64,000 nucleotides of DNA from Alphaproteobacteria bacterium (GTDB lineage: Bacteria; Pseudomonadota; Alphaproteobacteria; Reyranellales; Reyranellaceae). Where the stretch lies: contig VGCZ01000003.1 in the NCBI GenBank assembly GCA_016869975.1, forward strand, positions 1 through 64,000, given 5' to 3'. The notes under the pieces were generated by a model. The model was given only the letters and a program-made list of their open reading frames with translations. It did no database searches and was not told the DNA's origin. Made by a program: the position numbers and the translations under genes. This document shows, piece after piece, positions 1 to 25,771 of the stretch; within the stretch, counting starts at the first letter, position 1; the number at the start of each line of letters is the position of its first letter.

Positions 1-1953
1 GGCCCCGTCACGCTCAGCAGCGTCGATAACGCGTTCAACTCGTTCACCACCGCCGCCGCGATAGGCGCCGGGGTCACCGTCGTGCACAAGGGTGCTCTGA
101 CGATCAACGCCACCAACGCTGGCGCCAAGGCGGTCACGTTCACGACGAACAACGAGGGCAACATCACGGTGAGCGGCGAGATTATCGCCGCCGACCTGGT
201 GCTCTCGGCGGCGGGCACGCTGGCGGTCAACGCGGCCCTCACCGTTGCCGGCAGTAACGTGGGTCTGACGGGTGCGTCGATCACGCAGGGGGCCGCGGGT
301 GTCATCACCACCAGCGTCCTCGGTGTGTCGTCCACCGGCACCGCCGATCTGACGCAGGCGATCAGCGCTATCACCACCCTGGCCGCCAACGTCGGCAGCA
401 TCGCGTTCAAGGAAAGCAACGGATTCTCCGTCGGCACGGCCGGCGCGCTGAACGGCGTGACGGCGACCGGAACCGTCTACCTCTCGGCCGGCGGTTCGGT
501 CACGCAGACCAAGGCGATTTCCGCGTCGACGCTGGCCGTTGTCACCACGGCCGGTAACGTCGACCTGACGAGCGTCGCCAACACCGTCACCACTTTCGCC
601 GCATCATCGACAGGCTCGGTCGGCCTGCTCCAGACCGACACGCTCAGCGTCGGCTCGGCCAACGCCATCGGCACGCTCGCGGCCCTTGACGGGATTACCG
701 CCAACGGGGCGTCGATCAAGGCCGGCGGCACGGTCAGCCAGACCAAGACCATCACCGCCGGCGCCAACGGCCTGGGTGTGGTCACGACATCGGGCGACAT
801 CCAACTCGATACCGTCGGCGTTACCAACGCGACGAATTTGGTGGCGTTCAACGCCGCCGGCAGCGCCGCGTACAAGACGTCCAGCGACCTGACCGTTGGC
901 CAGGTCGCCGCCGTCGGCTCGCTCGCCGCGGTCACCGGTGCGACGGTGACCAGCACGCTGACGCTGACCACAACCGGCGCCGCCACAGCCATCGCGCAGG
1001 ACACGCCGATCACCGCGCCGACCTTGACGCTCGCCACCGGGGCGGGCGGCAAGATCACGCTGGCCAACGGCACGAATCTGATCGGCGCGGTGCAGAGTTC
1101 CGGTACCTGGGGTACCGGCGCACATGCGATCGTCGACAGCGATGGCGGCCTCAACGTCGGGCCGATCACCTCCAGTGGCGACGTCACGCTGACGACTTCG
1201 GGCGGCGGCCTCACGATCACCGGCGCGACCAATGTCGGCGCCACGACGCTGGCGCTGACAGCCAAAGGCAACAACACGATCACCGCCACGGCGGCGGCGA
1301 TCACTGCCGGGACTCTGACTCTCGAGACCGGCGCGGGCGGCAGCGCGTCCATCCAGACCGCGGCGCACGGCGTCGGCACTATCGCGACGGCCGGCGGCGG
1401 CGTCGGTACCGGTGGCATCGTCTTCAAGCAGAGCCGCGCGGTCGGCACCTCCGCCGGCCCGATCACCTCGACCGGCTCCGTCGCGATCACCGACGGCGTC
1501 GGCGCGATCAACGTCAACGGCGCGATCACCGCGACCAGCGTCACGCTGACGGCGAGCGCGAACATGATCGACGTTAACGCCCAGATCAACGTGGGTGCCG
1601 GTCAGGTCGCGCTGCTGGCGAACAATAACGTCACCCAGGCGGCCACGAACGCCGGCATCACCGCCGATGGCCTGCGTGTCGAAACCAATGTTGGCGCCGT
1701 GAGCTTGACGCCGACGGGTGTCGCGGCCGCCGACGTCAACACCGTGAACACCTTTGCCGCCCTCTCCACCGCCGGCGGCGTGACCTTCCGCAACAGCGGC
1801 ACCTTCAACGTCGGCAAGGTGGACGCCACCTCGGGCATCAACGCCGCGACGTCGGTGTCGCTGCGGGTCAACAACAACGGCGGCGCGATCACGCAGAGCG
1901 CCGGCACCGACGGCGCGATCACTGGCACCGGCCTGACGGTGCAGACCAATGAA
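1..1953 (+). repeat. Tandem 1953-bp coding repeat, unit 1 (full period)
   Basis: Base 1 aligns with base 1954, giving a period of 1953 bp (651 codons, in frame). Bases 1-1548 match 1954-3501 with no difference that I could find by eye, including at synonymous positions. The last 405 bp of this unit (1549-1953) are not repeated in the window. The preceding sequence is unseen, so there may be further units to the left. Confidence 0.9.
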
Positions 1954-4900
1954 GGCCCCGTCACGCTCAGCAGCGTCGATAACGCGTTCAACTCGTTCAC
2001 CACCGCCGCCGCGATAGGCGCCGGGGTCACCGTCGTGCACAAGGGTGCTCTGACGATCAACGCCACCAACGCTGGCGCCAAGGCGGTCACGTTCACGACG
2101 AACAACGAGGGCAACATCACGGTGAGCGGCGAGATTATCGCCGCCGACCTGGTGCTCTCGGCGGCGGGCACGCTGGCGGTCAACGCGGCCCTCACCGTTG
2201 CCGGCAGTAACGTGGGTCTGACGGGTGCGTCGATCACGCAGGGGGCCGCGGGTGTCATCACCACCAGCGTCCTCGGTGTGTCGTCCACCGGCACCGCCGA
2301 TCTGACGCAGGCGATCAGCGCTATCACCACCCTGGCCGCCAACGTCGGCAGCATCGCGTTCAAGGAAAGCAACGGATTCTCCGTCGGCACGGCCGGCGCG
2401 CTGAACGGCGTGACGGCGACCGGAACCGTCTACCTCTCGGCCGGCGGTTCGGTCACGCAGACCAAGGCGATTTCCGCGTCGACGCTGGCCGTTGTCACCA
2501 CGGCCGGTAACGTCGACCTGACGAGCGTCGCCAACACCGTCACCACTTTCGCCGCATCATCGACAGGCTCGGTCGGCCTGCTCCAGACCGACACGCTCAG
2601 CGTCGGCTCGGCCAACGCCATCGGCACGCTCGCGGCCCTTGACGGGATTACCGCCAACGGGGCGTCGATCAAGGCCGGCGGCACGGTCAGCCAGACCAAG
2701 ACCATCACCGCCGGCGCCAACGGCCTGGGTGTGGTCACGACATCGGGCGACATCCAACTCGATACCGTCGGCGTTACCAACGCGACGAATTTGGTGGCGT
2801 TCAACGCCGCCGGCAGCGCCGCGTACAAGACGTCCAGCGACCTGACCGTTGGCCAGGTCGCCGCCGTCGGCTCGCTCGCCGCGGTCACCGGTGCGACGGT
2901 GACCAGCACGCTGACGCTGACCACAACCGGCGCCGCCACAGCCATCGCGCAGGACACGCCGATCACCGCGCCGACCTTGACGCTCGCCACCGGGGCGGGC
3001 GGCAAGATCACGCTGGCCAACGGCACGAATCTGATCGGCGCGGTGCAGAGTTCCGGTACCTGGGGTACCGGCGCACATGCGATCGTCGACAGCGATGGCG
3101 GCCTCAACGTCGGGCCGATCACCTCCAGTGGCGACGTCACGCTGACGACTTCGGGCGGCGGCCTCACGATCACCGGCGCGACCAATGTCGGCGCCACGAC
3201 GCTGGCGCTGACAGCCAAAGGCAACAACACGATCACCGCCACGGCGGCGGCGATCACTGCCGGGACTCTGACTCTCGAGACCGGCGCGGGCGGCAGCGCG
3301 TCCATCCAGACCGCGGCGCACGGCGTCGGCACTATCGCGACGGCCGGCGGCGGCGTCGGTACCGGTGGCATCGTCTTCAAGCAGAGCCGCGCGGTCGGCA
3401 CCTCCGCCGGCCCGATCACCTCGACCGGCTCCGTCGCGATCACCGACGGCGTCGGCGCGATCAACGTCAACGGCGCGATCACCGCGACCAGCGTCACGCT
3501 GCACGCCGACATCATCGAGATCTCCGCCGCGATCAACGCCACCGGCACGATTACCCTGGCGCCGGTCACGGCGGGCACCGCGGTCTCTGTCGGCGGCGCG
3601 GCCGGCGCAGGCTTCGTCATCGACAACACCGAGCTGACGTTCCTGACATCGGCCTCCGCGCTGACAATCGGCAAGCAGTCGACGGGCACCACGACGGCGG
3701 GCGCGATCACGCTCGCGACCGGCGACGTCGGCGACGGTGTGGTCGCGCTGAAGACGCTCAATCTCTTCACCGCCGCCGACGTCGGCCAAACCGGTAAGTT
3801 GTCGGTCGGCGGCGGCAGCGGTACGCTGAACATAACGGCGGCGGGTACCGTTTCGCTCGTGAGCAGCGGTGTTCTGATTGGCACCCTCGGCGGTAGCACG
3901 ACGTCCGGCAGTTTTTCCGTCCTGCGCAGCAGGGTTGCCAGCACGCAGGCACTGACGGTGAACGCCATCACCACCAGCGGGGGCGATATCGCGGTCCGTA
4001 ATTTCGACGGCTCGGTGGTGGTGTCCGGGGCGCTCGCGAGCAGCGGCGGCAAGATCGCCATCGGGTCGAACAACAACGCCGGCTCGACGCTGACGATCAA
4101 CGCGCCAGTAAACGCCGGCACCGGCGGCGTGTACTTGTTTAGCGACGGTGGCACCAGCCAGGGCGGCGGCGGCGTCATCACTGCCACCGATTTCGTCGCG
4201 CGCGTTTATAGTTCAGGCGACCTGGTGCTCAGCGCCACCAACGCCGTCTCGGGCAACGTCGTGCTCGATAGCCCCGCCGGCAACGTCAGCTTTGTCAACG
4301 ACGGGGGATTCAATCTCGGCGGTCTGACGTCATCCTACACCGTGGCGGGCCTGAACTTCGCCATTACCACGCCGGGCATCACGACGAGCGCGGCCGGTAG
4401 CGCCACGCTGACCGCCGGCGGAAACGTGACGCAGTCGGCGGCGGCGAGCGACGCGCTGTCGGTCGGCACGCTGAACGTCACGCGACTGGGCGGGGCGAAT
4501 CCTGTCGTGACGCTGGATAACGCCAGCAACACGGTCACGAACGTAGGTGCGATCACGCTGGGCACCGGCTCCTTCACGCTGGTCGACGTCGGCGGCCTCA
4601 CCGTCACCGGCAATGCGACGGCCGCCAGCTACAGCCTGACGACGTCGGGCTCGATCACCCAGAACGGCGGCACGGCGATCACGGCCAGCAGCGTCGCGGC
4701 CAAGACCACGGGTGGTGGCGTCACCGGCGTCATCCTGACTTCCGCCACGAACGCGTTCGGCGCGATCAGCGGCTCAGCGGACGGCACCGCCGGCTTCAGC
4801 GCCACGACGACGACCAGCCTGACTGCCAACGCCATCACGGCGACATCCGGGATCGCCCTGACGACGACCGGCGGCACCAGCGACCTGACGGTGAACGGGC

Positions 4901-6045
4901 TGCTCACGGCGGGCGGCAACATCACCCTCGCGGCGGCCGGGTTGCTGACGATCAGCGAGGCGATCAATGCTGGAGTCGGCGGCGGCACGATCCGCCTACA
5001 GACCAGCGCTGGCGATCTGACCCAGGGCATCTACGGCACGATTACCGGCGGTTCGCTGCTGGCGATCTCGACCGGTGGCATGGTCAATCTCATCGGCGCC
5101 AACAACACGGTCAACGATATCGCCGGCCGAGCGTTCACCAGCTTCCTGTTCCAGAACAGCATCGGCTACAGTGTCAGCAACGTCTCGTTCGCCCGCGACG
5201 GCGTCGTCGCCGCGGTGACCGGTATCACGGCGAACTCCGGTGGCGGCGGCACGCCGTTCGTGGTCGACCTCGCAACCGCCTCCGGCGCGATCAACATCAA
5301 CGGCCCGGTGTTGTCGGCCAACGGCATGATCGTCTATCGCCGAACGCCGACGGGCGCGTCCGGGGCAATCAATGTCGGCGGTGGCGCCGGCAATCCGGGC
5401 AACGACATCAGCACCGCGAAGCTGGTGATTGTCGATCATACCGGCGCGTCGCCGCTGGCCCTGTATGGCGCCGCGCCGGGCGCCGGCGCGGGCGGCTTGT
5501 TCACGGTACCGACTCCGGCCACGGGCTTCAGCCCGTTGCCGGTACCCGGCAACCTGACGGGTGGCGGCTCGATCATCGGCGAACTGAACAGCTTCAACTC
5601 CACGGTCTACTTCTTCGCTACCGGCGCCAACATCCAGTCCGCCGACGGCGGCGGCTCCAGCTTCGGGCTGCTCGGCGTCTACGGCAACAGCAACACGGTC
5701 AACCTGACCACGTCGGTGCGCACGGTCGATCCCAACGTGGTGCGAGCGGTGACCGCTCCGTTTACCGAGCCACTGGTAGGCGGAGCGGTGGCCGCCTTCC
5801 ACGTGCGGCGCGACGGATTGCCGTCAGCCACCGAGCAATTCAACAGCTGTCCGATCGGCACCATCAATTGCATCATCCTTAGGGTGGTGATGGCGGCGCC
5901 GGGGACCAGCACCGACGATGTCGTCATCAGCGTCGGTGGCGCGCCGCTCGACGATGCGAGCGTCATTCTCGTCAATCAGGGCAACGAGGAGCTGATCATC
6001 GGCGACAAGGACGAGAAAGAGCGCAAGCGGAGTGAGCCACAATGA
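1..6045 (+). CDS. Giant filamentous-haemagglutinin-type adhesin, 3' part (5' end outside window)
   Basis: The frame is open from base 1, so the first GTG/ATG codons seen are internal and the true start lies to the left; 2014 residues are visible. The chain is low-complexity, rich in Gly, Ala, Thr, Val, Ser and Asn, with short strands of the GxITxxGxLTLxA kind, typical of the right-handed beta-helix of large secreted adhesins exported by two-partner secretion. A 651-residue block is tandemly repeated. Near the C-terminus (about residues 1950-1960) is a cysteine pair six residues apart (SCPIGTINC), as seen in many TpsA exoproteins, then a charged tail ending KERKRSEPQ. No C-terminal autotransporter barrel or sortase signal is visible. 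The stop overlaps the CHAT gene by ATGA, implying translational coupling. The N-terminal secretion domain and the TpsB pore are not in the window, so two-partner export is inferred from protein type. The ligand is unknown. Confidence 0.85.
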   Translation, partial: GPVTLSSVDNAFNSFTTAAAIGAGVTVVHKGALTINATNAGAKAVTFTTNNEGNITVSGEIIAADLVLSAAGTLAVNAALTVAGSNVGLTGASITQGAAGVITTSVLGVSSTGTADLTQAISAITTLAANVGSIAFKESNGFSVGTAGALNGVTATGTVYLSAGGSVTQTKAISASTLAVVTTAGNVDLTSVANTVTTFAASSTGSVGLLQTDTLSVGSANAIGTLAALDGITANGASIKAGGTVSQTKTITAGANGLGVVTTSGDIQLDTVGVTNATNLVAFNAAGSAAYKTSSDLTVGQVAAVGSLAAVTGATVTSTLTLTTTGAATAIAQDTPITAPTLTLATGAGGKITLANGTNLIGAVQSSGTWGTGAHAIVDSDGGLNVGPITSSGDVTLTTSGGGLTITGATNVGATTLALTAKGNNTITATAAAITAGTLTLETGAGGSASIQTAAHGVGTIATAGGGVGTGGIVFKQSRAVGTSAGPITSTGSVAITDGVGAINVNGAITATSVTLTASANMIDVNAQINVGAGQVALLANNNVTQAATNAGITADGLRVETNVGAVSLTPTGVAAADVNTVNTFAALSTAGGVTFRNSGTFNVGKVDATSGINAATSVSLRVNNNGGAITQSAGTDGAITGTGLTVQTNEGPVTLSSVDNAFNSFTTAAAIGAGVTVVHKGALTINATNAGAKAVTFTTNNEGNITVSGEIIAADLVLSAAGTLAVNAALTVAGSNVGLTGASITQGAAGVITTSVLGVSSTGTADLTQAISAITTLAANVGSIAFKESNGFSVGTAGALNGVTATGTVYLSAGGSVTQTKAISASTLAVVTTAGNVDLTSVANTVTTFAASSTGSVGLLQTDTLSVGSANAIGTLAALDGITANGASIKAGGTVSQTKTITAGANGLGVVTTSGDIQLDTVGVTNATNLVAFNAAGSAAYKTSSDLTVGQVAAVGSLAAVTGATVTSTLTLTTTGAATAIAQDTPITAPTLTLATGAGGKITLANGTNLIGAVQSSGTWGTGAHAIVDSDGGLNVGPITSSGDVTLTTSGGGLTITGATNVGATTLALTAKGNNTITATAAAITAGTLTLETGAGGSASIQTAAHGVGTIATAGGGVGTGGIVFKQSRAVGTSAGPITSTGSVAITDGVGAINVNGAITATSVTLHADIIEISAAINATGTITLAPVTAGTAVSVGGAAGAGFVIDNTELTFLTSASALTIGKQSTGTTTAGAITLATGDVGDGVVALKTLNLFTAADVGQTGKLSVGGGSGTLNITAAGTVSLVSSGVLIGTLGGSTTSGSFSVLRSRVASTQALTVNAITTSGGDIAVRNFDGSVVVSGALASSGGKIAIGSNNNAGSTLTINAPVNAGTGGVYLFSDGGTSQGGGGVITATDFVARVYSSGDLVLSATNAVSGNVVLDSPAGNVSFVNDGGFNLGGLTSSYTVAGLNFAITTPGITTSAAGSATLTAGGNVTQSAAASDALSVGTLNVTRLGGANPVVTLDNASNTVTNVGAITLGTGSFTLVDVGGLTVTGNATAASYSLTTSGSITQNGGTAITASSVAAKTTGGGVTGVILTSATNAFGAISGSADGTAGFSATTTTSLTANAITATSGIALTTTGGTSDLTVNGLLTAGGNITLAAAGLLTISEAINAGVGGGTIRLQTSAGDLTQGIYGTITGGSLLAISTGGMVNLIGANNTVNDIAGRAFTSFLFQNSIGYSVSNVSFARDGVVAAVTGITANSGGGGTPFVVDLATASGAININGPVLSANGMIVYRRTPTGASGAINVGGGAGNPGNDISTAKLVIVDHTGASPLALYGAAPGAGAGGLFTVPTPATGFSPLPVPGNLTGGGSIIGELNSFNSTVYFFATGANIQSADGGGSSFGLLGVYGNSNTVNLTTSVRTVDPNVVRAVTAPFTEPLVGGAVAAFHVRRDGLPSATEQFNSCPIGTINCIILRVVMAAPGTSTDDVVISVGGAPLDDASVILVNQGNEELIIGDKDEKERKRSEPQ
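1954..3501 (+). repeat. Tandem coding repeat, unit 2 (first 1548 bp, then diverges)
   Basis: This is a copy of bases 1-1548. Identity ends inside the shared stretch ..ACCAGCGTCACGCTG; the next base is A at 1549 and C at 3502, after which the beta-helix continues with unrelated sequence. Identity at the DNA level points to a recent duplication, gene conversion or an assembly effect rather than old internal protein repeats. Confidence 0.9.
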
Positions 6046-9000
6046 GATCCATGGCGCGCACGCTCATTGTTGCGCTGGCCGCGACCCCGCTTGCCGGCGG
6101 CGCGGTTGCGCAGGCGCCACAAGGTTCGCCCGCCGGCCAGAGCGCGGCCGGCGAACCTTGCGTCTACCGGCCGGCGACCTTGGACGCCGGCATGGGCGCG
6201 CAGGCGGCCTACGAGATCCTCTGCGGCAAGACCGGTGTGTTCTCCGCCACGCTGTACCAAATGGCGGGGACGACGGGCGCAGATGGCCTGCAGACGCTCG
6301 CCAGCAGCGGGCACTGGAAGGCGACGCTGGATGGCCGGGCGCGCTGCGAGGCGCCCCGGCAGTCGACCGTCAACGGTAATCCCGCGTTCGTGCTGCCCTG
6401 CATGCGCGCCGGTGGCGTTCCCTATATCGGCGTGCTGACCACCGCTGGCGGCAACACCTTCCTGGCCGATGGGATCTCGCCCGCCGCGCCGGCGATCGAG
6501 GCGACCATCGCGGCGCTGGGTGGCGGCCAGCCGGCGGCGGCTGCGCCGCGCGGCGGCGGCGCCATCACCAGCGGGCTCGACACGCGCTTCAAGGGCGGCT
6601 TCGGCTCGGGCGATATCGAGCGCTACCAGACCCTGATGCGGGTCGGCGGACGCCACAACATCGAGGAAAGTTACGCCAAGGCGGAGGAGGCTTATCGCGA
6701 GGCGCTGGTGCTGCATCAGAAGCTGTTCGGTCGCGACAATCCCGACCGGGCCGACGCGCTGATCCACTTCGCCCTGCAGATTAGCAACCAGGGCCGCTTC
6801 CGAGAGGCCGATCCGCTATTCGAGCGCGCCGAGAAGCTGGCGGTCGGCATCAAGGATCCGCTGGCGCGCGCGCGCATCTCGCACTACGTCGGCCAGCATC
6901 TCGCCAACCAGGGCAAGCACGACGAGGCGAAACGGCGCATCGATCTCGCCGAGGCCGCCTATATCGCCGCCGCGCCCGAGCTCGCGCCGCTGATGAACCA
7001 GGAGCAGGAGCGCCGCGCGGCGGCGGTCGGCTTCGGCGTGCGCGGCCAGCGCTTTGTCGATCCGCGCGCCGCCAGCTCGGCCGTGCCGGCCAATATCGGT
7101 ATTAGCCCGATCACGCTGCTCGCGGCGCAGGGTGTGTCGGAGATCCTGCGGCTGCGCGCGATCCTTGCGCTCTCCGCCGGCGACAACAATGCCAGCCGCG
7201 CCCACGCCAACAAGGCGATCGCGCTGCTCGAGGCGGTCGGTATCGACCCCGGCGGCGTGCGCTGGCGCGCCGTGCGCGTGGCCGGCCTGGGCGCTGCGCG
7301 GCAGGACAATCTCGGTGTCGCCAGCGCCGATCTCGGCGACTCCGCGCGCGGCCTCAACAAGGCGCTGCCGTCCTCGCAACCCGCCGGCAAGACGTTCCTC
7401 GAGAGCGGCAACATCCAGCTCAAGCGCGGCAATGTCCCGGGCGCGCTGGCGGAATTCCGCCGCGGCGCGGCGATCCTGCGTGAGCGCCAGAACACGGTCT
7501 CGGTCGAGACGGCGATGCCCTATCTCGACGCCGCGTGGCGGCAGTCGCAGTCGGGCACCGGCGGTATCGGCGTGTCGCTGCCCGCCGAGATGTTCGACGC
7601 GGCCCAGCTCGTCACCTCCGGCGTCACCGCCAGCTTCGTCGCCCAGGCGGCGTTGCGGCTCGGCGACGGCAACGAGCGCGTGCGCGCGTTGCAGGATCTC
7701 ACCAACCGGGTCACCGATCTTTATCAGCGCCGCGACATCGCCGCGAACCGAAACGCCGACACCGCGACGCTCGCGGCGATCGACGCGCAGATCGGCGACG
7801 CCCAGCAGCAGCGTGCTGCGGCCGAGGAGGAGGTGCGCAAGACGCTGCCGAACTACTTCCAGCTCGTGGCCGGCCAGGCCGGCTCGAAGGACGTGCTGGG
7901 CGTGCTGCGCCCGCAGGAAGGCTTCCTGCACATCGTGCTGGGCTCGACCAAGGGCTACGCCATGCTGGCGCATAGCGGGCGCGTCAACGCGTGGCCGATC
8001 GACCTCAGTCTCGCGAAGGCCGAGGAGATCGTCGGCAAGTTGCGCGGCGCCTTCACGCCCGACGCGCAGGGACAGTTGCCCAAGTACGACGTGGCGCTGG
8101 CGCACGATCTGTACAAGCGCGTGCTGGGCCCTGGCCAGGTGCACTTGAAGCCACTGAAGGCGCTGGTCATCACGACCAATGGCGCGCTGCAATCCCTGCC
8201 GTTCAATCTGATGGTCACGGCGCCGCCGCCGGCGATCGGCGAATACACCGACTACAAGAAGGTCGAGTGGTTGGCGAAGTGGTTCGCCATGTCCTATGTG
8301 CCTGCGCCGCAATCGTTGGTGTTGCTGCGCAAGCAGGCGGCGCGGTCGAAGGCGCCCAACGCCTATGTCGGCTTCGGCGGCTTCCAGCCGCTGTCGATCG
8401 GCGCGGCGGGCCAGCTCGTGGCGGCGTCGCGCGCCGCGTCGCTCACGCCCGGCCAGCGCTGTGATGCCGACGCGCGCGAGCTCGCCTCGCTGCCGGTGCT
8501 GCCGCTCGCCGAAGGCGAGGTGGCGTTGACCGCCAAGCAGCTCGGCGTCGGTCCGGCCGGTACGCGCCTGGGTCGCGCCTTCAGCAAGAGCGCGGTACTG
8601 AAAGGCCAGCTCGATCGCTACAAGATCATCCACCTCGCCGCGCATGCGCTGTTGCCGTCGGAGCTGCGCTGCCTGCAGCAGCCGGTGATCCTGACCGGGC
8701 AAGGCACAGGTCCTGAGGCGATGATCACGGCAGCCGATCTCGCGGCGATCAAGCTCGACGCCGACATGGTGGTGCTGTCGGCCTGCAACACGGCGGGCCC
8801 CGACGGCAAGAGCGCCGGCGAAGCCTTCTCGGGCTTGGCGCGCTCTTTCTTCACCGCCGGCACGCGTGGCTTGATGGCTTCGCACTGGAGCGTCGCCGAC
8901 GAATCGACGACGTTGATGATGATCAACGTGCTGGCGGCCGTCGGCAAAGGCCGCAGCGCGGCCGACGTGCTGCGCGTCGCCCAGCTCGAGATGCTGGATG

Positions 9001-9089
9001 GCGCCGGCAAGGGGCAGGATCCGGCGGAGTGGGCACACCCGTTCTTCTGGGCACCCTTTGTCTTCGCCGGCAACACGGGGGCGCCATAG
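6042..9089 (+). CDS. Secreted TPR-CHAT domain protein (caspase-like peptidase family)
   Basis: This 1015-residue protein begins with a signal peptide (residues 1 to about 24, ending near AVA-Q), so it should leave the cytoplasm. A middle region (about 200-480) has TPR-like helices, including an EAYREALVLHQKLFG unit. The C-terminal CHAT domain spans about 680-1010. CHAT peptidases use a His-Cys dyad; the candidates here are His868 in HLAAHA and Cys915 in LSACNTA, followed by the usual GEAFSGLARSFFTAGT and SHWSVAD segments. Its ATG overlaps the adhesin stop (ATGA), so the two are probably made together. Proteolytic processing or surface release of the adhesin is a reasonable guess, but no substrate is shown. 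An exported CHAT protein next to a two-partner-type adhesin is unusual beside the well-known cytoplasmic CHAT proteases. Domain assignment is strong; role is inferred. Confidence 0.88.
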   Translation: MRSMARTLIVALAATPLAGGAVAQAPQGSPAGQSAAGEPCVYRPATLDAGMGAQAAYEILCGKTGVFSATLYQMAGTTGADGLQTLASSGHWKATLDGRARCEAPRQSTVNGNPAFVLPCMRAGGVPYIGVLTTAGGNTFLADGISPAAPAIEATIAALGGGQPAAAAPRGGGAITSGLDTRFKGGFGSGDIERYQTLMRVGGRHNIEESYAKAEEAYREALVLHQKLFGRDNPDRADALIHFALQISNQGRFREADPLFERAEKLAVGIKDPLARARISHYVGQHLANQGKHDEAKRRIDLAEAAYIAAAPELAPLMNQEQERRAAAVGFGVRGQRFVDPRAASSAVPANIGISPITLLAAQGVSEILRLRAILALSAGDNNASRAHANKAIALLEAVGIDPGGVRWRAVRVAGLGAARQDNLGVASADLGDSARGLNKALPSSQPAGKTFLESGNIQLKRGNVPGALAEFRRGAAILRERQNTVSVETAMPYLDAAWRQSQSGTGGIGVSLPAEMFDAAQLVTSGVTASFVAQAALRLGDGNERVRALQDLTNRVTDLYQRRDIAANRNADTATLAAIDAQIGDAQQQRAAAEEEVRKTLPNYFQLVAGQAGSKDVLGVLRPQEGFLHIVLGSTKGYAMLAHSGRVNAWPIDLSLAKAEEIVGKLRGAFTPDAQGQLPKYDVALAHDLYKRVLGPGQVHLKPLKALVITTNGALQSLPFNLMVTAPPPAIGEYTDYKKVEWLAKWFAMSYVPAPQSLVLLRKQAARSKAPNAYVGFGGFQPLSIGAAGQLVAASRAASLTPGQRCDADARELASLPVLPLAEGEVALTAKQLGVGPAGTRLGRAFSKSAVLKGQLDRYKIIHLAAHALLPSELRCLQQPVILTGQGTGPEAMITAADLAAIKLDADMVVLSACNTAGPDGKSAGEAFSGLARSFFTAGTRGLMASHWSVADESTTLMMINVLAAVGKGRSAADVLRVAQLEMLDGAGKGQDPAEWAHPFFWAPFVFAGNTGAP

Positions 9090-9158: not shown

Positions 9159-9230
9159 GCTAGTCGGTTGGTATTGCTGTTAATGTTTGATGAGTGGTCC
9201 AGGGCTTACGTCCCCGGCAGGGAGGCACAT

Positions 9231-9929
9231 ATGCTTCGACGTCTTCATTTCGCAGGCGCTGTCGCCGCGACCGTCATGATGGGCGGGGCGTCGATCGCCC
9301 TGCAGGCCAACGCACAAGTGGTCGATGGCACGACCGGTAGGGTCGGGCGCTGCGACATGTTCAAGGCGCTCGGCCGTGCGCTGCCGCCCGAGTGCGGCGG
9401 CACCGGCCCGTCGACCGGCGGCGCTACCCGCGGCCGTGTGGTGATCGGTGCGCCCGACAGCGGCGCGGCCAAGCCTGCCGCTGCGCCGGCGGCCGCACCC
9501 GCCGCGGCGCCCGCGGCGGCTCCGGCTGGCGCGCCGACGACGACAGCCGCGCCGGCGGCGCCCGCCACGACCGCAGCCCCGGCGCCCGCGCCGCGTGGCC
9601 TGGGTCTGCAGGTGCCGTTCGCGCTCGACTCCGATCAGCTGACAGCGGATGCCAAGAAGGTCGTCGATCAGCTCGCCGAGGTCTTCAAGTACAACCCGAA
9701 TGATCGCTACGTTATCGAGGGGCACACCGATGCCGCGGGCGGGGTCGATTACAACCGCTCACTCTCGGAGCGCCGGGCGCAGGCGGTGATCGAGTATCTC
9801 GCCACCGCGCATGGCTTGCCGCGCGATCGCTTCGTGGCCCGCGGCGCCGGCAGCGCACAGCTGCTGCTTCCGGCCGATCCGCTCAACGGCCGCAATCGGC
9901 GCGTTCAGGTTCTGCCGACGGGTTCGTAA
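9231..9929 (+). CDS. OmpA-family peptidoglycan-binding protein, copy 1
   Basis: Predicted 232-residue exported protein. The start at 9231 is chosen because GGGAGG lies just upstream and because it places a clean signal peptide (about residues 1-28, ending QANAQ) at the N-terminus; a longer upstream frame lacks this. Next come a short two-cysteine motif (GRCDMFKALGRALPPECGG), a long Ala/Pro linker and a C-terminal OmpA domain (about 130-232) with the peptidoglycan-binding pattern IEGHTDAAGG...LSERRAQAV...NRRVQV. There is no N-terminal beta-barrel. It is probably periplasmic, holding peptidoglycan. It is the first of two paralogues placed directly before tssA, which suggests a role in anchoring the T6SS or the envelope around it. 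Confidence 0.85.
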   Translation: MLRRLHFAGAVAATVMMGGASIALQANAQVVDGTTGRVGRCDMFKALGRALPPECGGTGPSTGGATRGRVVIGAPDSGAAKPAAAPAAAPAAAPAAAPAGAPTTTAAPAAPATTAAPAPAPRGLGLQVPFALDSDQLTADAKKVVDQLAEVFKYNPNDRYVIEGHTDAAGGVDYNRSLSERRAQAVIEYLATAHGLPRDRFVARGAGSAQLLLPADPLNGRNRRVQVLPTGS

Positions 9930-9992: not shown

Positions 9993-10670
9993 ATGACAGG
10001 GGTGGATGCGAGACGGCTCGCCCTGGCGGTGGCGCTTTTCGCGCTGTCGGGTCTGGCCGAGTCGCAGCAGGCCCAGGCGCAGCAGCGCATGGACCGATGC
10101 CAGATGCATATCGCCATCGGCCGTAACATCCCGGCCGAATGCGGCGGCACGGCCGGACCGGGCGGCACGACGACACGCGGACGCGTGGTGATCGGCACGC
10201 CGGACTCCGGCGCCGCCAAGCCGCCGGCTGGCGGCCAGCCCGGCGCCGCGGCGCCGGCGGGCGCCGCTCCGACCGGCGCGGCGCCGCCGACGGCGACCCC
10301 CGTCGATCGCGCGCCGCCGACGCGCGGGGCGCCGTACTCGCTGTCGCTACCTATTCTTTTCGAATTCGATTCGGATCGGTTGACGCCGTCGGCCAGCAAG
10401 TTGCTCGACGATCTAGCCGACGTGCTCAAGCGCAACGCGAGCGATCGCTTCGTCATCGAGGGCCATACCGACGCGGTCGGCGCCGACGAGTACAACAAGG
10501 AGCTGTCGGAGCGGCGCGCGCGGGCGGTTGTCGACTATCTCGCGACACGGCACTCTATCGATCGCGCTCGCCTCGAAAGCGTCGGCCTCGGTCGCTCGAA
10601 GCTGGTCGTACCCAATCAGCCGGCCGATCCGCGCAATCGCCGGGTGCAGATTCTCAACGTCGGAACCTGA
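9993..10670 (+). CDS. OmpA-family peptidoglycan-binding protein, copy 2
   Basis: This 225-residue paralogue of the preceding gene has the same layout: signal peptide (about residues 1-29), a two-cysteine segment DRCQMHIAIGRNIPAECGG, the shared stretch TRGRVVIGTPDSGAAKP, an Ala/Pro linker and an OmpA domain with IEGHTDAVGADEYNKELSERRA and a terminal NRRVQILNVGT. A G-rich ribosome site (GGGGGG) precedes the ATG. The stop is only 9 bases before tssA, so it should be co-transcribed with the T6SS sheath genes. T6SS loci often supply peptidoglycan binding through an OmpA domain fused to TssL or through TagL; since neither is present here, these two proteins may do that work. That last point is inference. 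Confidence 0.85.
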   Translation: MTGVDARRLALAVALFALSGLAESQQAQAQQRMDRCQMHIAIGRNIPAECGGTAGPGGTTTRGRVVIGTPDSGAAKPPAGGQPGAAAPAGAAPTGAAPPTATPVDRAPPTRGAPYSLSLPILFEFDSDRLTPSASKLLDDLADVLKRNASDRFVIEGHTDAVGADEYNKELSERRARAVVDYLATRHSIDRARLESVGLGRSKLVVPNQPADPRNRRVQILNVGT

Positions 10671-10679: not shown

Positions 10680-11828
10680 ATGGCGGAAGCAGCGGCGCAG
10701 GGCGCACAGGCACAGCAGGTACAGTTCGTCATCGAGGTGCCGGCGCTGCTCGCTCCCGTAGCGGGGGACAAGCCGACGGGCGCCAATCCGCGCGATGATG
10801 ACTCGGCGACGTCGCCCTACTACGACGTGCGCAATGTGCGCGGCGTGGCCAACGCCGCGGAGAAAGACTGGCTCAACCTGGAGCTCTCGGCCGCCCCGGG
10901 CGCTGACGAGGCGCGCGATCGGGCCATGCAGGCCTGGGGTCAGGTCCAGGAAAAATGTGAAACGATCCTGCGTGAGAAATCCAAGGATCTGGAGATTCTC
11001 GAGTGGCTGATCGAGTCGCTCATCAGGATCGAGGATTTCGCCGGGCTGCACGCCGGTCTCGTGCTGGCCGCGGATATGCTCGAGAAGTACTGGGACGACG
11101 TCAACTACAGCGTCGACCCCGACGACCCCACTGCCAAAGGCTTCAACTTCGACCGGCTGAACAAGACGCTGGTCGCGCCGATCATGCGTACGCCCGTGAC
11201 TCCACCGGCGGGCGACAAGGGGCCGCTGCCGCTTGCCATGTTGCAGCGGATGCAGAAGGACAAGGCGGGACTGGGCGAGGCGGAAGCCGCGGCGCGCGCC
11301 GGCGGTCGGCCGTTCTATCAGCCGCTCGGCGTGCATATCCGTGGCTCGATCGCGAGCTGGCAGCGCATCAACAAGTTTCTGAACTCGAAAATGGGCGACG
11401 ACGCGCCCATGCTCGGCCCGCTGTCGGAGTTGCTCGTCGACCTCGAAAAGATGGTCAAGCTGGTGGCGGGTTCCCTGGTCGACCCGCCGGTCGCAGCCGG
11501 CCCGGCCGCCGCCGAAGGCGATGCTGCCGCGGCCGCCGATGGCGCGCCGGGCGGCGCCCAGGCCAATTTCGCGCGGCCCGGCACCTTCGCCACGCGCGAG
11601 CAGGCTCTCGACATGCTGGCGGCGGTGGCGAAGTATTTTCGTGAGTACGAGCCGCAATCGCCGGTCTCGTACGCCCTTGATGCGACCATCGACCGCGCGC
11701 GCATGTCCTTGCCCGACCTGCTCGCTGAACTCTTGCCGGACGTCGACGCTCGCCGCAAGATGCTGCAGATCGCGGGCATCAGGCCGCCGGAACCGCCGCC
11801 GGCAGCTGACGCGAAAGCCAAGAAATGA
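10680..11828 (+). CDS. tssA: T6SS protein TssA (ImpA)
   Basis: This 382-residue protein has an ImpA N-terminal domain (about residues 20-150), with the SPYYDVRNVRG and DWLNLELSAAPG stretches followed by a helical region containing KDLEILEWLIESLIR. TssA acts with the baseplate and at the tip of the growing sheath and guides tube and sheath polymerisation. The C-terminal part (about 290-370) has ATREQALDMLAAVAKYFREYEPQSP-like sequence, the common ImpA-related end with Pro-Ser/Tyr-ala. It lies at the head of the imp-type gene order A-B-C-D-E-F-G-H. It is 80 bases from tssB, the largest gap in this operon after ompA copy 2. Confidence 0.92.
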   Translation: MAEAAAQGAQAQQVQFVIEVPALLAPVAGDKPTGANPRDDDSATSPYYDVRNVRGVANAAEKDWLNLELSAAPGADEARDRAMQAWGQVQEKCETILREKSKDLEILEWLIESLIRIEDFAGLHAGLVLAADMLEKYWDDVNYSVDPDDPTAKGFNFDRLNKTLVAPIMRTPVTPPAGDKGPLPLAMLQRMQKDKAGLGEAEAAARAGGRPFYQPLGVHIRGSIASWQRINKFLNSKMGDDAPMLGPLSELLVDLEKMVKLVAGSLVDPPVAAGPAAAEGDAAAAADGAPGGAQANFARPGTFATREQALDMLAAVAKYFREYEPQSPVSYALDATIDRARMSLPDLLAELLPDVDARRKMLQIAGIRPPEPPPAADAKAKK

Positions 11829-11879
11829 CGGTATAGTCGCGTCGCCTGTCCTCGCGTCGCGGCTTGGAAATGTGCTAGG

Positions 11880-11891
11880 GTTCCACGGAAC
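11880..11891 (+). promoter_or_regulatory. Short palindrome upstream of tssB
   Basis: GTTCC-AC-GGAAC is a perfect five-base inverted repeat 17 bases before the tssB start, in the only sizeable gap (80 bases) between tssA and tssB. It could be an operator or a small hairpin setting tssB/tssC expression, since sheath proteins are needed in large amounts. A chance palindrome this short is quite possible. Confidence 0.2.
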
Positions 11892-11908
11892 ACGGGAGAG
11901 GTGCGATC

Positions 11909-12421
11909 ATGGCTGAATCGGTACAGAAAAAGCTTGATCGGGTGCGTAAGCCGCGCGTGCACATCAAGTACGAGGTCGAGACCGAAGGCGCGATGGTGGT
12001 CAAGGAACTGCCGTTCGTCGTCGGCGTGACGGGCGATTTTTCGGGCGATCCGACGGCGAAGCTGCCGGAACTGCGCGACCGCAAGTTCGTTCAGATCGAT
12101 CGCGACAACTTCAACAAGATCATGTCGACGATGGCGCCGGGCGCCAACATGCGCGTCGCCAACAAGCTGCAGGACGACGGCTCCGAGATGGCCGTCAACC
12201 TGAAGTTCAACTCGATGGACGATTTCGAGCCGAACCGGATCGTCAGCCAGGTCGAGCCGCTCAAGCGCCTCAAGGAGACGCGCGACAAGCTGCGCGATCT
12301 GCTGGCCAAGGCCGACCGCTCTGAGAACCTCGAGCAGATGCTCGAGAAGATCCTGGCCGACGAGGAGGCGGTGAAGAAGCTGCACTCCGAGATCGAAGCC
12401 CGTAACAAGAAGGAGGGCTGA
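11909..12421 (+). CDS. tssB: T6SS contractile sheath small subunit TssB (ImpB/VipA)
   Basis: This 170-residue protein has the family's standard length and core: a basic N-terminus ([20 protein letters not shown]), the [14 protein letters not shown] segment, and [19 protein letters not shown] followed by helices. TssB pairs with TssC to build the cytoplasmic sheath whose contraction fires the Hcp tube. The ribosome site GGGAGAGG lies about 8 bases upstream of the ATG. It ends 2 bases before tssC, so the two are co-translated as expected for partners needed in equal amounts. Confidence 0.96.
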
Positions 12422-12423
12422 GC

Positions 12424-13905
12424 ATGGCCGCCGAGACCTCGACCCAGGCGCAAGCCGGCGCCACCGCGACCGAGGAGGGCTTCTCCCTGCTCGATCAGGC
12501 GATCGGCGCGACCAAGCAGACCGACGCCAACGAGGCCCAGGACCTGCTGAAGGCCCTCACCGAGCAGGCGATGGCCGGCACGGTGAAGTTCAGCCGCAAC
12601 CTGGCGCAGACGATCACCAAGGCCATCGAGATGATCGATGGCAAGATCTCCCGGCAGCTCGCCGAGATCATGCATCACGAGAAGTTTCTCAAGATCGAGG
12701 GCTCGTGGCGCGGTCTCAATTATCTCGTGATGAACAGCGAGACCGGCGAGAACCTGAAGATCCGCGTTCTCAATATCACCAAGCGGCAGCTGCTGAACGA
12801 CTTCGCCAAGGCGACCGAGTTCGACCAGAGCATGCTGTTCAAGAAGATCTACGAGAACGAGTTCGGCACGCCGGGCGGCGAGCCCTATGGCTGCATGGTC
12901 GGTGACTACGAGTTCTCCAACCATCCCGACGACATCGAGCTGCTGCGCGGCCTCTCCGGCGTCGCCGCGGCCTCGTTCGCGCCGTTCATCTCGGCGGCGA
13001 GCGCCAAGATGTTCGACGTGGGCGACTTCCGCGACCTCAAGGAGGTCCGCGACCTGAAGAAGGGCTTCGAGGGCGGCAAGTACATCGGCTGGCGCGGCCT
13101 GCGCGAGAGCGAGGACTCGCGCTTCCTGTGCCTGACCATGCCGCGCGCGCTCGCCCGCGTGCCCTACGGCAAGGACACCAAGCCGATCGAGGAGTTCGAC
13201 TACGAGGAGGGCGAGCCCGGCCGCGCGCTGTCGCACGACCACTATTGCTGGATGAACTCCGCCTTTGTCTATGCCCAGCGCCTGACCAACGCCTTCTCGC
13301 AGTACGGCTTCTGCACGGCCATCCGCGGTGCCGAGGGCGGCGGCAAGGTCGAGGGCCTGCCGAGCCACGTGTTCGAGAGCGACGACGGCGACTTCGACCA
13401 GAAGTGCCCGACCGAGTTCGCGATCACCGACCGGCGCGAGAAGGAGCTGGCGGATCTCGGCTTCATGCCGCTGTCGCACTACAAGAACACGGACTACGCG
13501 GTGTTCTTCGGCGCGCAGACGGTGCACAAGCCGCAGAAGTACGACCGCCCCGAGGCGACCGAGAACGCCGCGATCTCGGCGCGTCTGCCGTACATCATGG
13601 CTTCGTCGCGCTTCGCCCACTATCTGAAGATCATGGGCCGCGACAAGGTCGGCTCCTTCATGGAGCGTGGCGACGTCGAGAAGTGGCTGAACCGCTGGAT
13701 CAGCAACTACGTCAACTCCAACCCCGACGCCGGCCAGGAGACCAAGGCCAAGTACCCGCTGCGCGAGGCCCGCGTGACGGTGGTCGAGGTCCCGGGCTCA
13801 CCGGGCTCCTACTCGGCCGTGGCGCATCTGCGTCCGTGGCTGCAGATGGAAGAGCTGACCGCGTCGCTGCGAATGGTCGCGCGCATTCCGGCGCAGGCCA
13901 AGTGA
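12424..13905 (+). CDS. tssC: T6SS contractile sheath large subunit TssC (ImpC/VipB)
   Basis: This 493-residue protein is full length and clearly TssC. It has the KFLKIEGSWRGLNYLV region, KKIYENEFGTPGGEPYGCM, a DYEFSNHPDDIELLRGLS segment, FLCLTMPRALARVPYG and the conserved C-terminal part SSRFAHYLKIMGRDKVGSF. It forms the sheath with TssB in the cytoplasm and is recycled by ClpV. The next gene is a second, divergent TssC-family member; this copy is the closer one to the canonical sheath protein and directly follows tssB. Confidence 0.96.
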   Translation: MAAETSTQAQAGATATEEGFSLLDQAIGATKQTDANEAQDLLKALTEQAMAGTVKFSRNLAQTITKAIEMIDGKISRQLAEIMHHEKFLKIEGSWRGLNYLVMNSETGENLKIRVLNITKRQLLNDFAKATEFDQSMLFKKIYENEFGTPGGEPYGCMVGDYEFSNHPDDIELLRGLSGVAAASFAPFISAASAKMFDVGDFRDLKEVRDLKKGFEGGKYIGWRGLRESEDSRFLCLTMPRALARVPYGKDTKPIEEFDYEEGEPGRALSHDHYCWMNSAFVYAQRLTNAFSQYGFCTAIRGAEGGGKVEGLPSHVFESDDGDFDQKCPTEFAITDRREKELADLGFMPLSHYKNTDYAVFFGAQTVHKPQKYDRPEATENAAISARLPYIMASSRFAHYLKIMGRDKVGSFMERGDVEKWLNRWISNYVNSNPDAGQETKAKYPLREARVTVVEVPGSPGSYSAVAHLRPWLQMEELTASLRMVARIPAQAK

Positions 13906-13915
13906 CGGAGCGGGC

Positions 13916-15457
13916 GTGGCCGCGCCCGACGAGGTCCCGCCCTCCGCGGATACCGGATCAACCGGTATTTCGTTAGCGGAACTCGGCTTCGATCTCCCGG
14001 TGCCGGCTGCCGATCTAGCCGACGCCGCGGCACCGCAAGCGCACGAGAAGGCGCCTCCGTCGCCGGCCGAAGAGCCGGTGCCGGAGGCGCCAGCCGTTTC
14101 GCCGCTCACACGAGCCGAGCTCGATAAGCGCAACGCGTGGACTCGCCGCGCGATCGACAGGCTGATCGCGGCGATCGATCGCATGCTGTCAGCGCAGGTC
14201 GACGAGATTCTGCACCACCCCAAGACGCAGCGCCTCGAGGCGTCGTGGCGTGGCGTGATGTGGCTGCTGCGCGTCGCCGACGGCTCGAAGTGGATCCGCA
14301 TCAAGCTCTTGAACATGACCTGGATGGAGCTGACGCGCGACATCGACCGCGCGCTGGAGTTCGACCAGAGCCAGATCTTCGACAAGGTCTACACCCAGGA
14401 ATTCGACACGCCCGGCGGTATTCCCTACGGTCTGATCATCGCCGACTACGAGCCGACCAAGCACCCGCGCGACATCGCGACCCTGCGCGGCCTGGCCAGC
14501 GCGGTGGGCGCCGCGCACACGCCGACCGTGCTGGGCTGCTCGCCGGCGGTGTTCGGCGTCGACGGCTTCCGCGAACTGGTTTCGACCATCGACCTCACGG
14601 CGCTGTTCCAGCGCGGCGAGTTCACCGCGTGGCGTGGCTTCTGCTCGTCGACCGAGGACGCGCGCTATCTTGGTTTCGCTCTGCCGCGCGTGCTGATGCG
14701 CAAGCCCTACCGCAACGACGGCAATCGCGCCGACGGCTTCGTCTACAGCGAGACGACCCATCTGCGCAGCGGCCGCGGCTGGCTGTGGGGCTCGGCCGCC
14801 TACGCCTTCGGCGCCGTCGTGGTGCGCTCCTTCGCGACCTATGGCTGGTTCGCCGATATCCGCGGCGCCGGCCGCGACATGACCGGCGGCGGGCTGGTCG
14901 ACGACATGCCGACTCCATGGTTCACCACCGACCGGCCCGGGGTGGGCATCCGCGTGCCGGTGGAGATCCAGCTCACCGAGCGACAGGAGAAGGAACTCTC
15001 CGATGTCGGCTTCATACCGCTGGTGCCGGCGCGGCTCACCGCCTTCGCCGCCTTCCACTCCAACCAGTCGTCCTGGGTGCCGCCGCGCTACGACAAGGCG
15101 GCGGCGCGGATGAACGCCAAGCTGTCCTCTATGTTGCAGCAGATTCTCTGCGTGTCGCGCTTCGCGCACTACATCAAGGTGATGGCGCGCGACGAGGTCG
15201 GCAGCTTCCGCACCGCCGACGAATGCCGCGACAAGCTGATGAAGTGGCTGCAGACATACACGCAGAGCAACGACGACGCCCCGCTCGAGACCAAGGCCAG
15301 GTACCCGTTGCGCGACGCCGACATCGAGGTCACGGAACTGGTAGGAAAGCCCGGCAGCTTCGCCGTCGTGGCGCGGCTGCAGCCGCAGTTTCAGCTCGAC
15401 GAAATCGGCGCGAATTTCAATCTCGTCAGCACCGTGCGCACGCAGGATGCGGCGTGA
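13916..15457 (+). CDS. Second TssC-family sheath protein (ImpD / TssC40-like)
   Basis: This 513-residue paralogue of the preceding gene starts at a GTG with GGAG seven bases upstream. It has an extra acidic, proline-rich N-terminus of about 55 residues, then the same landmarks in altered form: RLEASWRGVMWLLRVADG, DKVYTQEFDTPGGIPYGL, DYEPTKHPRDIATLRGLA, LPRVLMRKPYRNDG, VSRFAHYIKVMARDEVGSF. Tandem TssC-type genes occur in the Rhizobium imp cluster (impC, impD) and in Agrobacterium (tssC41, tssC40), which supports an alphaproteobacterial origin. It may be a specialised sheath subunit, for example a cap or base ring, or a regulator of sheath assembly; the sequence alone does not decide. Confidence 0.9.
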   Translation: MAAPDEVPPSADTGSTGISLAELGFDLPVPAADLADAAAPQAHEKAPPSPAEEPVPEAPAVSPLTRAELDKRNAWTRRAIDRLIAAIDRMLSAQVDEILHHPKTQRLEASWRGVMWLLRVADGSKWIRIKLLNMTWMELTRDIDRALEFDQSQIFDKVYTQEFDTPGGIPYGLIIADYEPTKHPRDIATLRGLASAVGAAHTPTVLGCSPAVFGVDGFRELVSTIDLTALFQRGEFTAWRGFCSSTEDARYLGFALPRVLMRKPYRNDGNRADGFVYSETTHLRSGRGWLWGSAAYAFGAVVVRSFATYGWFADIRGAGRDMTGGGLVDDMPTPWFTTDRPGVGIRVPVEIQLTERQEKELSDVGFIPLVPARLTAFAAFHSNQSSWVPPRYDKAAARMNAKLSSMLQQILCVSRFAHYIKVMARDEVGSFRTADECRDKLMKWLQTYTQSNDDAPLETKARYPLRDADIEVTELVGKPGSFAVVARLQPQFQLDEIGANFNLVSTVRTQDAA

Positions 15458-15490
15458 TCGGCTGACCGACCGACATTCCAGGGGGACCGT

Positions 15491-16303
15491 ATGGCGAGCG
15501 ACGCAAGAGCATTATTCCGCGACGGCAATCTCGACGGTGCGATCGAGGCCGCCACTAACACGGTGCGCGACAATCCAAACGACGCCGAGGCCCGCGCGCT
15601 GCTCGCCGACTTCCAGTGTTTCGCCGGCGCCTTCGACAAGGCTGACCGGCAGCTCGACATCATCGGCACGCAGAACACCAAGCTGGCCGTCGCCGTCGCC
15701 CAGACGCGCCAGGTGATTCGCGGCGCTATGGCGCGCCAGGAAGTCTTCGAGAAGGGCCGCGCGCCCGACGTCGTGACCGAGCCCGACGCCTTCGTCGCCG
15801 CCAGCCTGCAGGCGCTGCTGGCGCTGCGCGAGGGCGACAACAAGCGGGCCGGCGAGATCCTCGCCGAGGCCGAGGAAGCGCGCATCAAGGTGGCCGGCAA
15901 GCGCGATGGCGACAAGCCGTTCGACGATTTCCGCGACGCCGACGATCTCAGCGCCGGAATCCTCGAGGTCATCTCGGTCACCGGCAAGTACTTCTGGGTG
16001 CCGACGCACAAGGTCGTGTCGATCCGCTTCGAGAAGTCGGCGCGGCCGCGCGATCTGTTGTGGCGGCCGGCCGCGGTCGAGGTGCGTGACGGTCCCGAGG
16101 GCGTAGTCTATATTCCCGCCACCTACCCGACGATTCCGGCCGGCCCGAACGCCACGGCGCTGCGGCTGGGCCGCGCCACCGATTGGCAGGGCGGCGAGGG
16201 CGAGGTCGTGCGCGGTGTCGGTCTGCGCTTGTTCGTCGTCGGCGAGGACGGCGTCGGCATCGACGAGCTGTCGGAGATCGACTTCGAGACCGCGAGCGCC
16301 TGA
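15491..16303 (+). CDS. tagJ: T6SS accessory protein TagJ (ImpE)
   Basis: This 270-residue protein starts with TPR-like helices (residues 1-110: ARALFRDGNLDGAIEAA...NPNDAEARALLADFQCFAG), then the ImpE-type C-terminal domain with the characteristic VPTHKVVSIRFEKSARPRD and LWRPAAVEV stretches and a WQGG/GRATDW motif. TagJ binds TssB and influences ClpV-driven sheath handling. A GGGGGA ribosome site precedes the ATG, 33 bases after the second tssC stop. Its place between the tssC pair and tssE is exactly that of impE. Confidence 0.92.
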   Translation: MASDARALFRDGNLDGAIEAATNTVRDNPNDAEARALLADFQCFAGAFDKADRQLDIIGTQNTKLAVAVAQTRQVIRGAMARQEVFEKGRAPDVVTEPDAFVAASLQALLALREGDNKRAGEILAEAEEARIKVAGKRDGDKPFDDFRDADDLSAGILEVISVTGKYFWVPTHKVVSIRFEKSARPRDLLWRPAAVEVRDGPEGVVYIPATYPTIPAGPNATALRLGRATDWQGGEGEVVRGVGLRLFVVGEDGVGIDELSEIDFETASA

Positions 16304-16323
16304 CGAGTACCGATCACGTGTCC

Positions 16324-16812
16324 ATGAACGACAAGAACACCCCGCGCGCGCTGCTTTCGGTGCTGGATCGGCTGATCGATCTGGATCCGGAGAGCCAGAC
16401 GGAATTGCCGCCGACGCCGACCGAGGCGCTGGACCGGCTACGCGAGGGCGTGCGCCGCGACGTCGAGGCGCTGCTGAACACGCGTGAGCGTTGCCGCGGC
16501 TGGCCCGACGTGTTCGGCGAGCTCGATGAGTCGGTCGTCGGCTACGGCATTCCCGACTTCTCGATCACGTCGATTCAGGGCGGCAACTGGCGAGTCCTCG
16601 TGTGTCGGCAGATCGAAGCGGCGATCCGCCGATTTGAATCCAGGTTGTCGATGGTGCGGGTGACCCTGCCGGAGAAGGGCGATCGCATGGATCGCTCGGC
16701 GCGTTTCCGCATTGACGCCCTGCTGTCGGCCGACCCGGCGCCCGAGCCGGTCAGCTTCGACACCGTGCTCGAGCCGACGACGCGTCGGGTCAACGTGTCG
16801 ACCGGACGCTGA
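16324..16812 (+). CDS. tssE: T6SS baseplate protein TssE (gp25-like, ImpF)
   Basis: This protein of about 162 residues belongs to the phage gp25-like lysozyme-fold family. The conserved block is at residues 37-80: DRLREGVRRDVEALLNTRER followed by SVVGYGIPDFS. TssE is a baseplate wedge protein that helps start sheath assembly; the family has lost lysozyme activity in most members. The ATG at 16324 gives a normal-length product, but a GTG at 16318 two codons earlier, with GACGAG nearer the usual spacing, is an equally good start. It ends 7 bases before the tssF start. Confidence 0.93.
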   Translation: MNDKNTPRALLSVLDRLIDLDPESQTELPPTPTEALDRLREGVRRDVEALLNTRERCRGWPDVFGELDESVVGYGIPDFSITSIQGGNWRVLVCRQIEAAIRRFESRLSMVRVTLPEKGDRMDRSARFRIDALLSADPAPEPVSFDTVLEPTTRRVNVSTGR

Positions 16813-16819
16813 GGACGCC

Positions 16820-18634: not shown

Positions 18635-19677
18635 TCGAGCGCCTGCGCGAGGAGCCGGAGGCGTTCGACACGCTGCAGGCCATCCTCACGCTGGAGCGCC
18701 ACGCCGCGCGCCAGGGCGGACGCGTCGGTGGCAGCGCGCCGGTTGGCGGCGAGGCGCTGCCTCGGGACGAGGTGCTGCATTTCGTCAGCGAGACGGCGAT
18801 GGCCTTCCCGGTCTCGACGCTGACGCAGGTGCGCGAGACGCCTGGCGGGCCGCCGAAGGTGGAGATCACCTTCATGGGCCTGCACGGCCCATCGGGCGTG
18901 CTGCCGCAGGCCTATAGCGACAAGGTGCTCGAGCGGCAGCGCGAGAAGGACACGTCGCTCGCCGATTTCCTCGATCTCTTCACCCATCGCTCGGCCAGCT
19001 TCTTCATCCGCGCGTGGAAGAAGTATCGGCTCGCGGCGCAGGTCAACTCGACCTATGACGAGTTGGGTCCCACGGCGCTGCCGTCCGATCTCGGCATCGC
19101 CGGCTTCGTTGACGCGATCCTGGGCTTCAGTACCGGCGGGCTGAAGGGCAGGCTGGCGCCGCGCCACACGGCGCTGCGCTTCTACGCCGGCGCCTATGCC
19201 GGCAATCCGCGCTCGGCCGTCGTACTCGAGGCGATCCTCAGCGACTATTTCGGCGAGAGGATCACCGTTGACACCTTCGTGCCGCACTGGGAGAGGCTGC
19301 CGGCCAGCGAGCAGACGCAGATGACACCGACCGGCTTTTGTCGGTTGGGCGACGAGGCGGTGGTCGGTGCGCGCGTGATGCGCCCGGAAGCCAAGTTCCG
19401 CATCAAGCTGGGGCCGCTTGACTACAAGACGCTGCGCTCGTTCCTGCCGGATCAGACAAGGTTGCGCGAGCTGGTGCACCTGGCGCGGCTGTTCGTCGGC
19501 GAGGCGATGTTCTTCGACATCCAGCTGATCCTGCGTCGCGACGAGGTTCCGCCGATGCAGCTTGGCGATTGGGGTGGCGGCGATGGCGCGCGGTTGGGCT
19601 GGAACACCTGGCTCACGTCGGTGACGCCGCCGACCAACCCCGACGACACTATCTTGTCTTGCGACACCGTTCCCTGA
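18598..19677 (+). CDS. tssG: T6SS baseplate protein TssG (ImpH/VasB)
   Basis: This 359-residue protein is typical of the family: an N-terminal PPLIERLREEPEAFDTLQAI segment, EVLHFVSETAMAFP, the LHGPSGVLPQAYSDKVLERQREKD core with HRSASFFIRAWKKYR, and a C-terminal half with DFLPDQTRLRELVHLARLF-like sequence. It pairs with TssF in the baseplate wedge. The start codon lies inside the end of tssF. It is the last gene of the plus-strand T6SS operon; the PAAR gene on the other strand ends 7 bases beyond its stop. tssK, tssL and tssM, which follow impH/impI in Rhizobium, do not follow here. Confidence 0.95.
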   Translation: MASPDGREDPPLIERLREEPEAFDTLQAILTLERHAARQGGRVGGSAPVGGEALPRDEVLHFVSETAMAFPVSTLTQVRETPGGPPKVEITFMGLHGPSGVLPQAYSDKVLERQREKDTSLADFLDLFTHRSASFFIRAWKKYRLAAQVNSTYDELGPTALPSDLGIAGFVDAILGFSTGGLKGRLAPRHTALRFYAGAYAGNPRSAVVLEAILSDYFGERITVDTFVPHWERLPASEQTQMTPTGFCRLGDEAVVGARVMRPEAKFRIKLGPLDYKTLRSFLPDQTRLRELVHLARLFVGEAMFFDIQLILRRDEVPPMQLGDWGGGDGARLGWNTWLTSVTPPTNPDDTILSCDTVP

Positions 19678-22157: not shown

Positions 22158-22261
22158 TCGTCGGCTCTCCGGCAGAGGCAGTCTTGGCCGCCCATATATA
22201 TCAGCGCGCCTCGCGGCCCGTCACATGAAGCTGACGCGCCGGGCCGTCGCGGCGAGCCGAC

Positions 22262-22861: not shown

Positions 22862-22895
22862 TCCGCCTCCTACCCGACTCCGCTCGCCGCCCGCT

Positions 22896-24878: not shown

Positions 24879-24952
24879 GGCCGCGCTCCTGATGGCCGCG
24901 AACATATCGCGCAGCCAGTCTATGGCAAAGTGTCCGACAGGCTGGTGCCAAG

Positions 24953-24989: not shown

Positions 24990-25023
24990 TGATAACTGCG
25001 CCTCGATTGAAAGGTCCAAGCAT

Positions 25024-25767: not shown

Positions 25768-25771
25768 GGCC

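Follow-up and report, generated by a model that had tools for sequence, protein, structure and literature searches.

A putative envelope CHAT protease paired with a TPS adhesin in Alphaproteobacteria

Proteases of the CHAT family are known chiefly for roles inside cells, in CRISPR and in cell death. The locus described here raises the question of what a member of this family might do when it carries an export signal and is encoded directly behind a giant adhesin. We addressed this question in the window (the whole 64,000-nucleotide stretch of DNA that was analyzed) and in related genomes. The features on which the argument rests are as follows.

1..6045, + strand: giant TPS-type adhesin (TpsA), C-terminal part of 2014 aa, an open frame cut at its 5' side by the contig start
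6042..9089, + strand: predicted exported TPR-CHAT protein of 1015 aa, with adhesin-coupled translation (ORF list, Pfam)
6042..6113, + strand: Sec signal peptide of the CHAT protein, read from sequence
6123..6530, + strand: N-terminal domain of the CHAT protein, residues 28-163, PsbP/Mog1/DcrB-like fold (alignment and structure model)
6606..7871, + strand: helical/TPR region of the CHAT protein, about residues 189-610 (Pfam, structure model)
8094..9074, + strand: CHAT protease domain (Pfam, alignment)
8460-8462, + strand: Cys807, CHAT domain, paired with Cys877
8643-8645, + strand: His868, putative catalytic residue, CHAT domain
8670-8672, + strand: Cys877, CHAT domain, paired with Cys807
8784-8786, + strand: Cys915, putative catalytic residue, CHAT domain

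First, we analyzed the CHAT protein. Its start codon (ATG at 6042) shares bases with the stop codon of the adhesin (TGA at 6043-6045) in the sequence ATGA, just as the sequence-only reading of this DNA had stated, and the signal peptide, TPRs and His868/Cys915 that it had described were all recovered (Pfam, sequence and an alignment of 98 proteins). CHAT (PF12770; residues 685-1011, E 5e-42, 144.7 bits versus a cut-off of 24) and TPR_12 (residues 205-266, E 1.8e-8) were the only Pfam families in the 1015-aa protein, and NCBIfam contained no specific family for it. Among the matches listed for the CHAT model (m67266447054c, pLDDT 78.7), the closest solved folds were Csx29/TPR-CHAT (Z 25.1) and separase (Z 20.4), both of which are known proteases. 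DdvA, the top Foldseek match of this model, was absent among the 50 VIA matches listed and was not retained. The model of the N-terminal domain (pLDDT 95.9) resembled PsbP, DcrB and LpqN, and firm homology to these proteins was rejected because the matches reached only Z < 8. With such TPR and PsbP/Mog1-like domains, which suit binding, the CHAT protein might serve the adhesin as a scaffold or chaperone in the periplasm, with no proteolytic role. However, the His/Cys pair was invariant in 98/98 aligned CHAT relatives that diverge down to 26% identity, and we regard a purely structural role as very improbable.

The CHAT protein starts with MRSMARTLIVALAATPLAGGAVAQ followed by AP, which reads as a Sec signal with an AxA site. 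Two further sets of cysteines were conserved: the four of the N-terminal domain (Cys 40, 61, 102 and 120) were kept in at least 91 of the 98 aligned rows, and the Cys807/Cys877 pair was present in all 98. The latter pair was missing from 15 of 17 other alphaproteobacterial CHATs, the exceptions being L054, which has a TPS-like ORF upstream, and L052, whose genome yielded no TPS domain. Among named genomes, a scan retrieved 79 CHAT loci, mainly from Reyranellaceae and Acetobacteraceae-related bacteria, and a home-made heuristic for signals and lipoboxes detected an h-region of at least 1.8 in 75 of them and a lipobox in 62, so that at most loci the protein is predicted to be an envelope lipoprotein or a cleavable-signal protein. 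Exported CHATs are common in Alphaproteobacteria, and export alone is therefore not distinctive of the 1015-aa protein; several CHATs with no adjoining TPS gene seen (within L053-L071) also start with an apparent lipobox. Based on the signal peptide or lipobox together with the conserved extra cysteines, the predicted envelope location is well supported. Thus, of the earlier proposal that an envelope CHAT peptidase processes, releases or polices the adhesin, the location is supported, and policing received no support.

Second, we examined the gene pair itself, whose lack of conservation, like a failure of the His/Cys pair, had been set in advance as grounds to refute the sequence-only reading; neither check refuted it. 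Upstream of CHAT, 73 of the 79 named loci have an adhesin ORF that reaches 300 aa or more, 71 of those with a hook (see below), and 56 of the gaps between the two genes lay within 30 bases. Culturable, non-pathogenic relatives with the module include Vineibacter terrae and Reyranella sp. CPCC 100927. A blind sample of 289 alphaproteobacterial genomes, with a pair defined as a TPS gene followed on its own strand by a CHAT gene no more than 16 kb away, gave 15 pairs in 14 genomes versus 0.145 expected, which argues against chance adjacency. In the reverse direction, an HMM of the adhesin C-terminus matched 6 of the 289 genomes (two of which had supplied sequences, or close relatives of them, to the model), and CHAT was next in 6/6. 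The pairing of CHAT with a TPS adhesin is therefore well supported. A short TPS adhesin with a CHAT-type tail and no CHAT nearby was also seen (L224:7926-9632, on contig C27 of genome G006); this genome has two TPS-CHAT pairs elsewhere.

Third, the adhesin C-terminus, which contains no Pfam domain, offers two features relevant to how the partners might work together.

5839..5871, + strand: predicted disulfide hook FNSCPIGTINC, Cys1950 and Cys1957 (sequence, relatives)
5968..6042, + strand: conserved adhesin tail LVNQGNEELI..., predicted periplasmic (alignment A2; class-wide scan with A2)

Cys1950 and Cys1957 are the only cysteines in the 2014 aa of adhesin read, and the adhesin thus has the Cys pair near the C-terminus that characterizes HMW1 and HxuA. 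In most paired adhesins (up to about 3300 aa read) the hook pair likewise comprises the only two cysteines, and the hook starts 50-121 aa before the end. Some paired adhesins (L051, L160, L167, L168, L169 and L171) had no hook, which shows that pairing does not depend on it. The terminal tail motif was first spotted in paired adhesins, and its scarcity among unpaired adhesins is a post hoc comparison. A 1953-base direct repeat was also present in the adhesin (1-3501), beginning exactly at the contig end, the two copies being identical over their first 1548 bases; it reflects either a recent duplication or a collapsed assembly, and the number of adhesin repeats is therefore uncertain in this assembly.

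HMW1 and HxuA are TpsA proteins that a C-terminal disulfide loop keeps locked in TpsB (PMC5422565), and the periplasmic tail of CdrA is cleaved by LapG (PMC5422565, PMC4694147). The LapG family (Peptidase_C93, PF06035) had no match in the present genome, with a positive Caulobacter control. Given that the partner adhesin has a predicted disulfide-hook anchor and a conserved, predicted periplasmic tail, processing or release of the adhesin by the CHAT protein appears plausible. The same pairing, hook and tail would also fit a CHAT protein that matures the adhesin rather than releasing it, either by helping secretion or by trimming the tail, which would let the hook seat in TpsB; other TpsA proteins are known to undergo proteolytic processing (PMC5422565). 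We consider this version rather unlikely, although the sequence evidence is identical for release, maturation and assembly.

Finally, we investigated the genomic context of the pair, beginning with the genes downstream of it.

9168..9929, + strand: OmpA-domain protein 1 (Pfam)
9993..10670, + strand: OmpA-domain protein 2 (Pfam)
10680..19677, + strand: tssA, tssB, tssC, second tssC, tagJ/impE, tssE, tssF, tssG (T6SS)
20025..30198, - strand: tagH (FHA), vgrG, hcp, clpV (T6SS)

The adhesin ORF runs off the start of contig C3, on which the order is TpsA C-terminus, CHAT, OmpA, OmpA, TssA, TssB, TssC, TssC-like, TagJ, TssE, TssF and TssG, followed on the other strand by TagH, VgrG, Hcp and ClpV. 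The sole TPS domain of the genome (E 1.3e-31) lies at the start of contig C41, where its reading frame exits the contig end, and the sole detected TpsB (ShlB/POTRA protein) lies beside it. Towards this open end, C41 reads TssK (named from sequence resemblance only), TssL, TssM, TagF, PppA, PpkA, TpsB and TpsA, and the sister species G001 has TssM-TagF-PppA-PpkA-TpsB-TpsA-CHAT on a single contig. No sequence overlap joining C41 to C3 was found, and we infer their join from the split genes and the order in G001. The adhesin-CHAT module thus sits within a T6SS cluster in this genome. The sequence-only reading had missed this setting, as well as the identity of the adhesin as a TPS TpsA and the frequency of exported CHATs.

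T6SS structural genes flanked 24 of the 79 CHAT loci, versus about one locus expected by chance (a hand estimate that assumes a genome of 4.5 Mb and a target of 45 kb). At 12424-15457, two tssC-like sheath genes stand in tandem; the second carries an N-terminal extension, and both occur in several related loci. No TssJ (SciN) family member was found in the genome. The annotated neighbors were TPS, OmpA and T6SS genes, with no type III-E CRISPR context (gRAMP/Cas7-11), and a defence-system reading of the CHAT protein was rejected as PADLOC gave no match.

A receptor-like kinase with one predicted TM segment, and in some cases DUF4384, directly followed CHAT in three-fifths (42/70) of the loci that retain 1 kb or more of downstream sequence, and in the window genome a PpkA-type kinase immediately precedes TpsB. 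OmpA proteins also recurred near CHAT loci, and a divergent gene of ~390 aa with no Pfam family was observed between kinase and OmpA (L110:14927-16111, also in L126). Neighbor labels were scattered on the CHAT tree, partly since contig ends hide neighbors. Such recurrent kinases and OmpA proteins could suggest a signalling protease, in which contact sensed by the adhesin would lead CHAT to cut the periplasmic part of a PpkA-type kinase or OmpA, turning on the T6SS via threonine phosphorylation. However, many TPS-CHAT pairs had no visible kinase or T6SS nearby (within the view that contig ends allow), and the near-constant partner was the adhesin; we therefore judge a signalling function to be improbable.

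Taken together, we lean slightly towards a periplasmic CHAT cysteine protease that is dedicated to the preceding hooked TPS adhesin and acts as a counterpart of LapG on CdrA. TpsB would export the adhesin, and the two-cysteine hook near the adhesin C-terminus would retain it on the surface, should the predicted disulfide form, leaving the short conserved tail in the periplasm. The TPR and N-terminal domains may then bring the CHAT protein to the tail of this candidate substrate, and cleavage at a presumed site near the hook or tail would control either release, as for CdrA, or maturation of the adhesin. As the module lies inside a T6SS cluster, the adhesin probably mediates the contact between cells for a T6SS attack. 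An alphaproteobacterial T6SS with a built-in, protease-controlled TPS adhesin, whose CHAT protein and receptor kinase read prey contact, gate firing and then free the prey, is a bolder extension that we offer as a long shot.

A search of the literature available to us found no paper on the pairing of an exported CHAT with a TPS adhesin. Our results extend the CHAT family to the cell envelope, where an obvious substrate candidate lies at hand, point to a possible LapG-independent route to control TPS adhesins, and link T6SS clusters with a giant adhesin. This link is relevant to how contact with prey is established and broken by T6SS attackers.

Several known systems share part of this arrangement. 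TasL of the Vibrio fischeri T6SS2 is also a giant surface protein in a T6SS cluster and is needed for prey contact, but it is a lipoprotein rather than a TPS protein, and the part of the report available to us describes no CHAT partner (PMC9040878). HMW1 and HxuA have the TpsA C-terminal disulfide loop (PMC5422565), which is matched here by a Cys pair with a predicted disulfide; no paired CHAT has been described for them, whereas the conserved post-hook tail is a feature of the present group. Csx29/TPR-CHAT of Craspase and separase likewise combine a TPR/helical region with a CHAT or separase protease domain. These proteins are cytoplasmic or nuclear, whereas the present CHAT is predicted to be exported and has extra conserved cysteines and an N-terminal domain. 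The CdrA/CdrB system of Pseudomonas aeruginosa offers a functional parallel, in that a periplasmic cysteine protease, LapG, cuts the tail of a TPS adhesin and thereby releases it (PMC5422565, PMC4694147), a step that we only propose here. On the other hand, LapG belongs to an unrelated family (Peptidase_C93), whereas the CHAT protein is encoded directly behind its adhesin.
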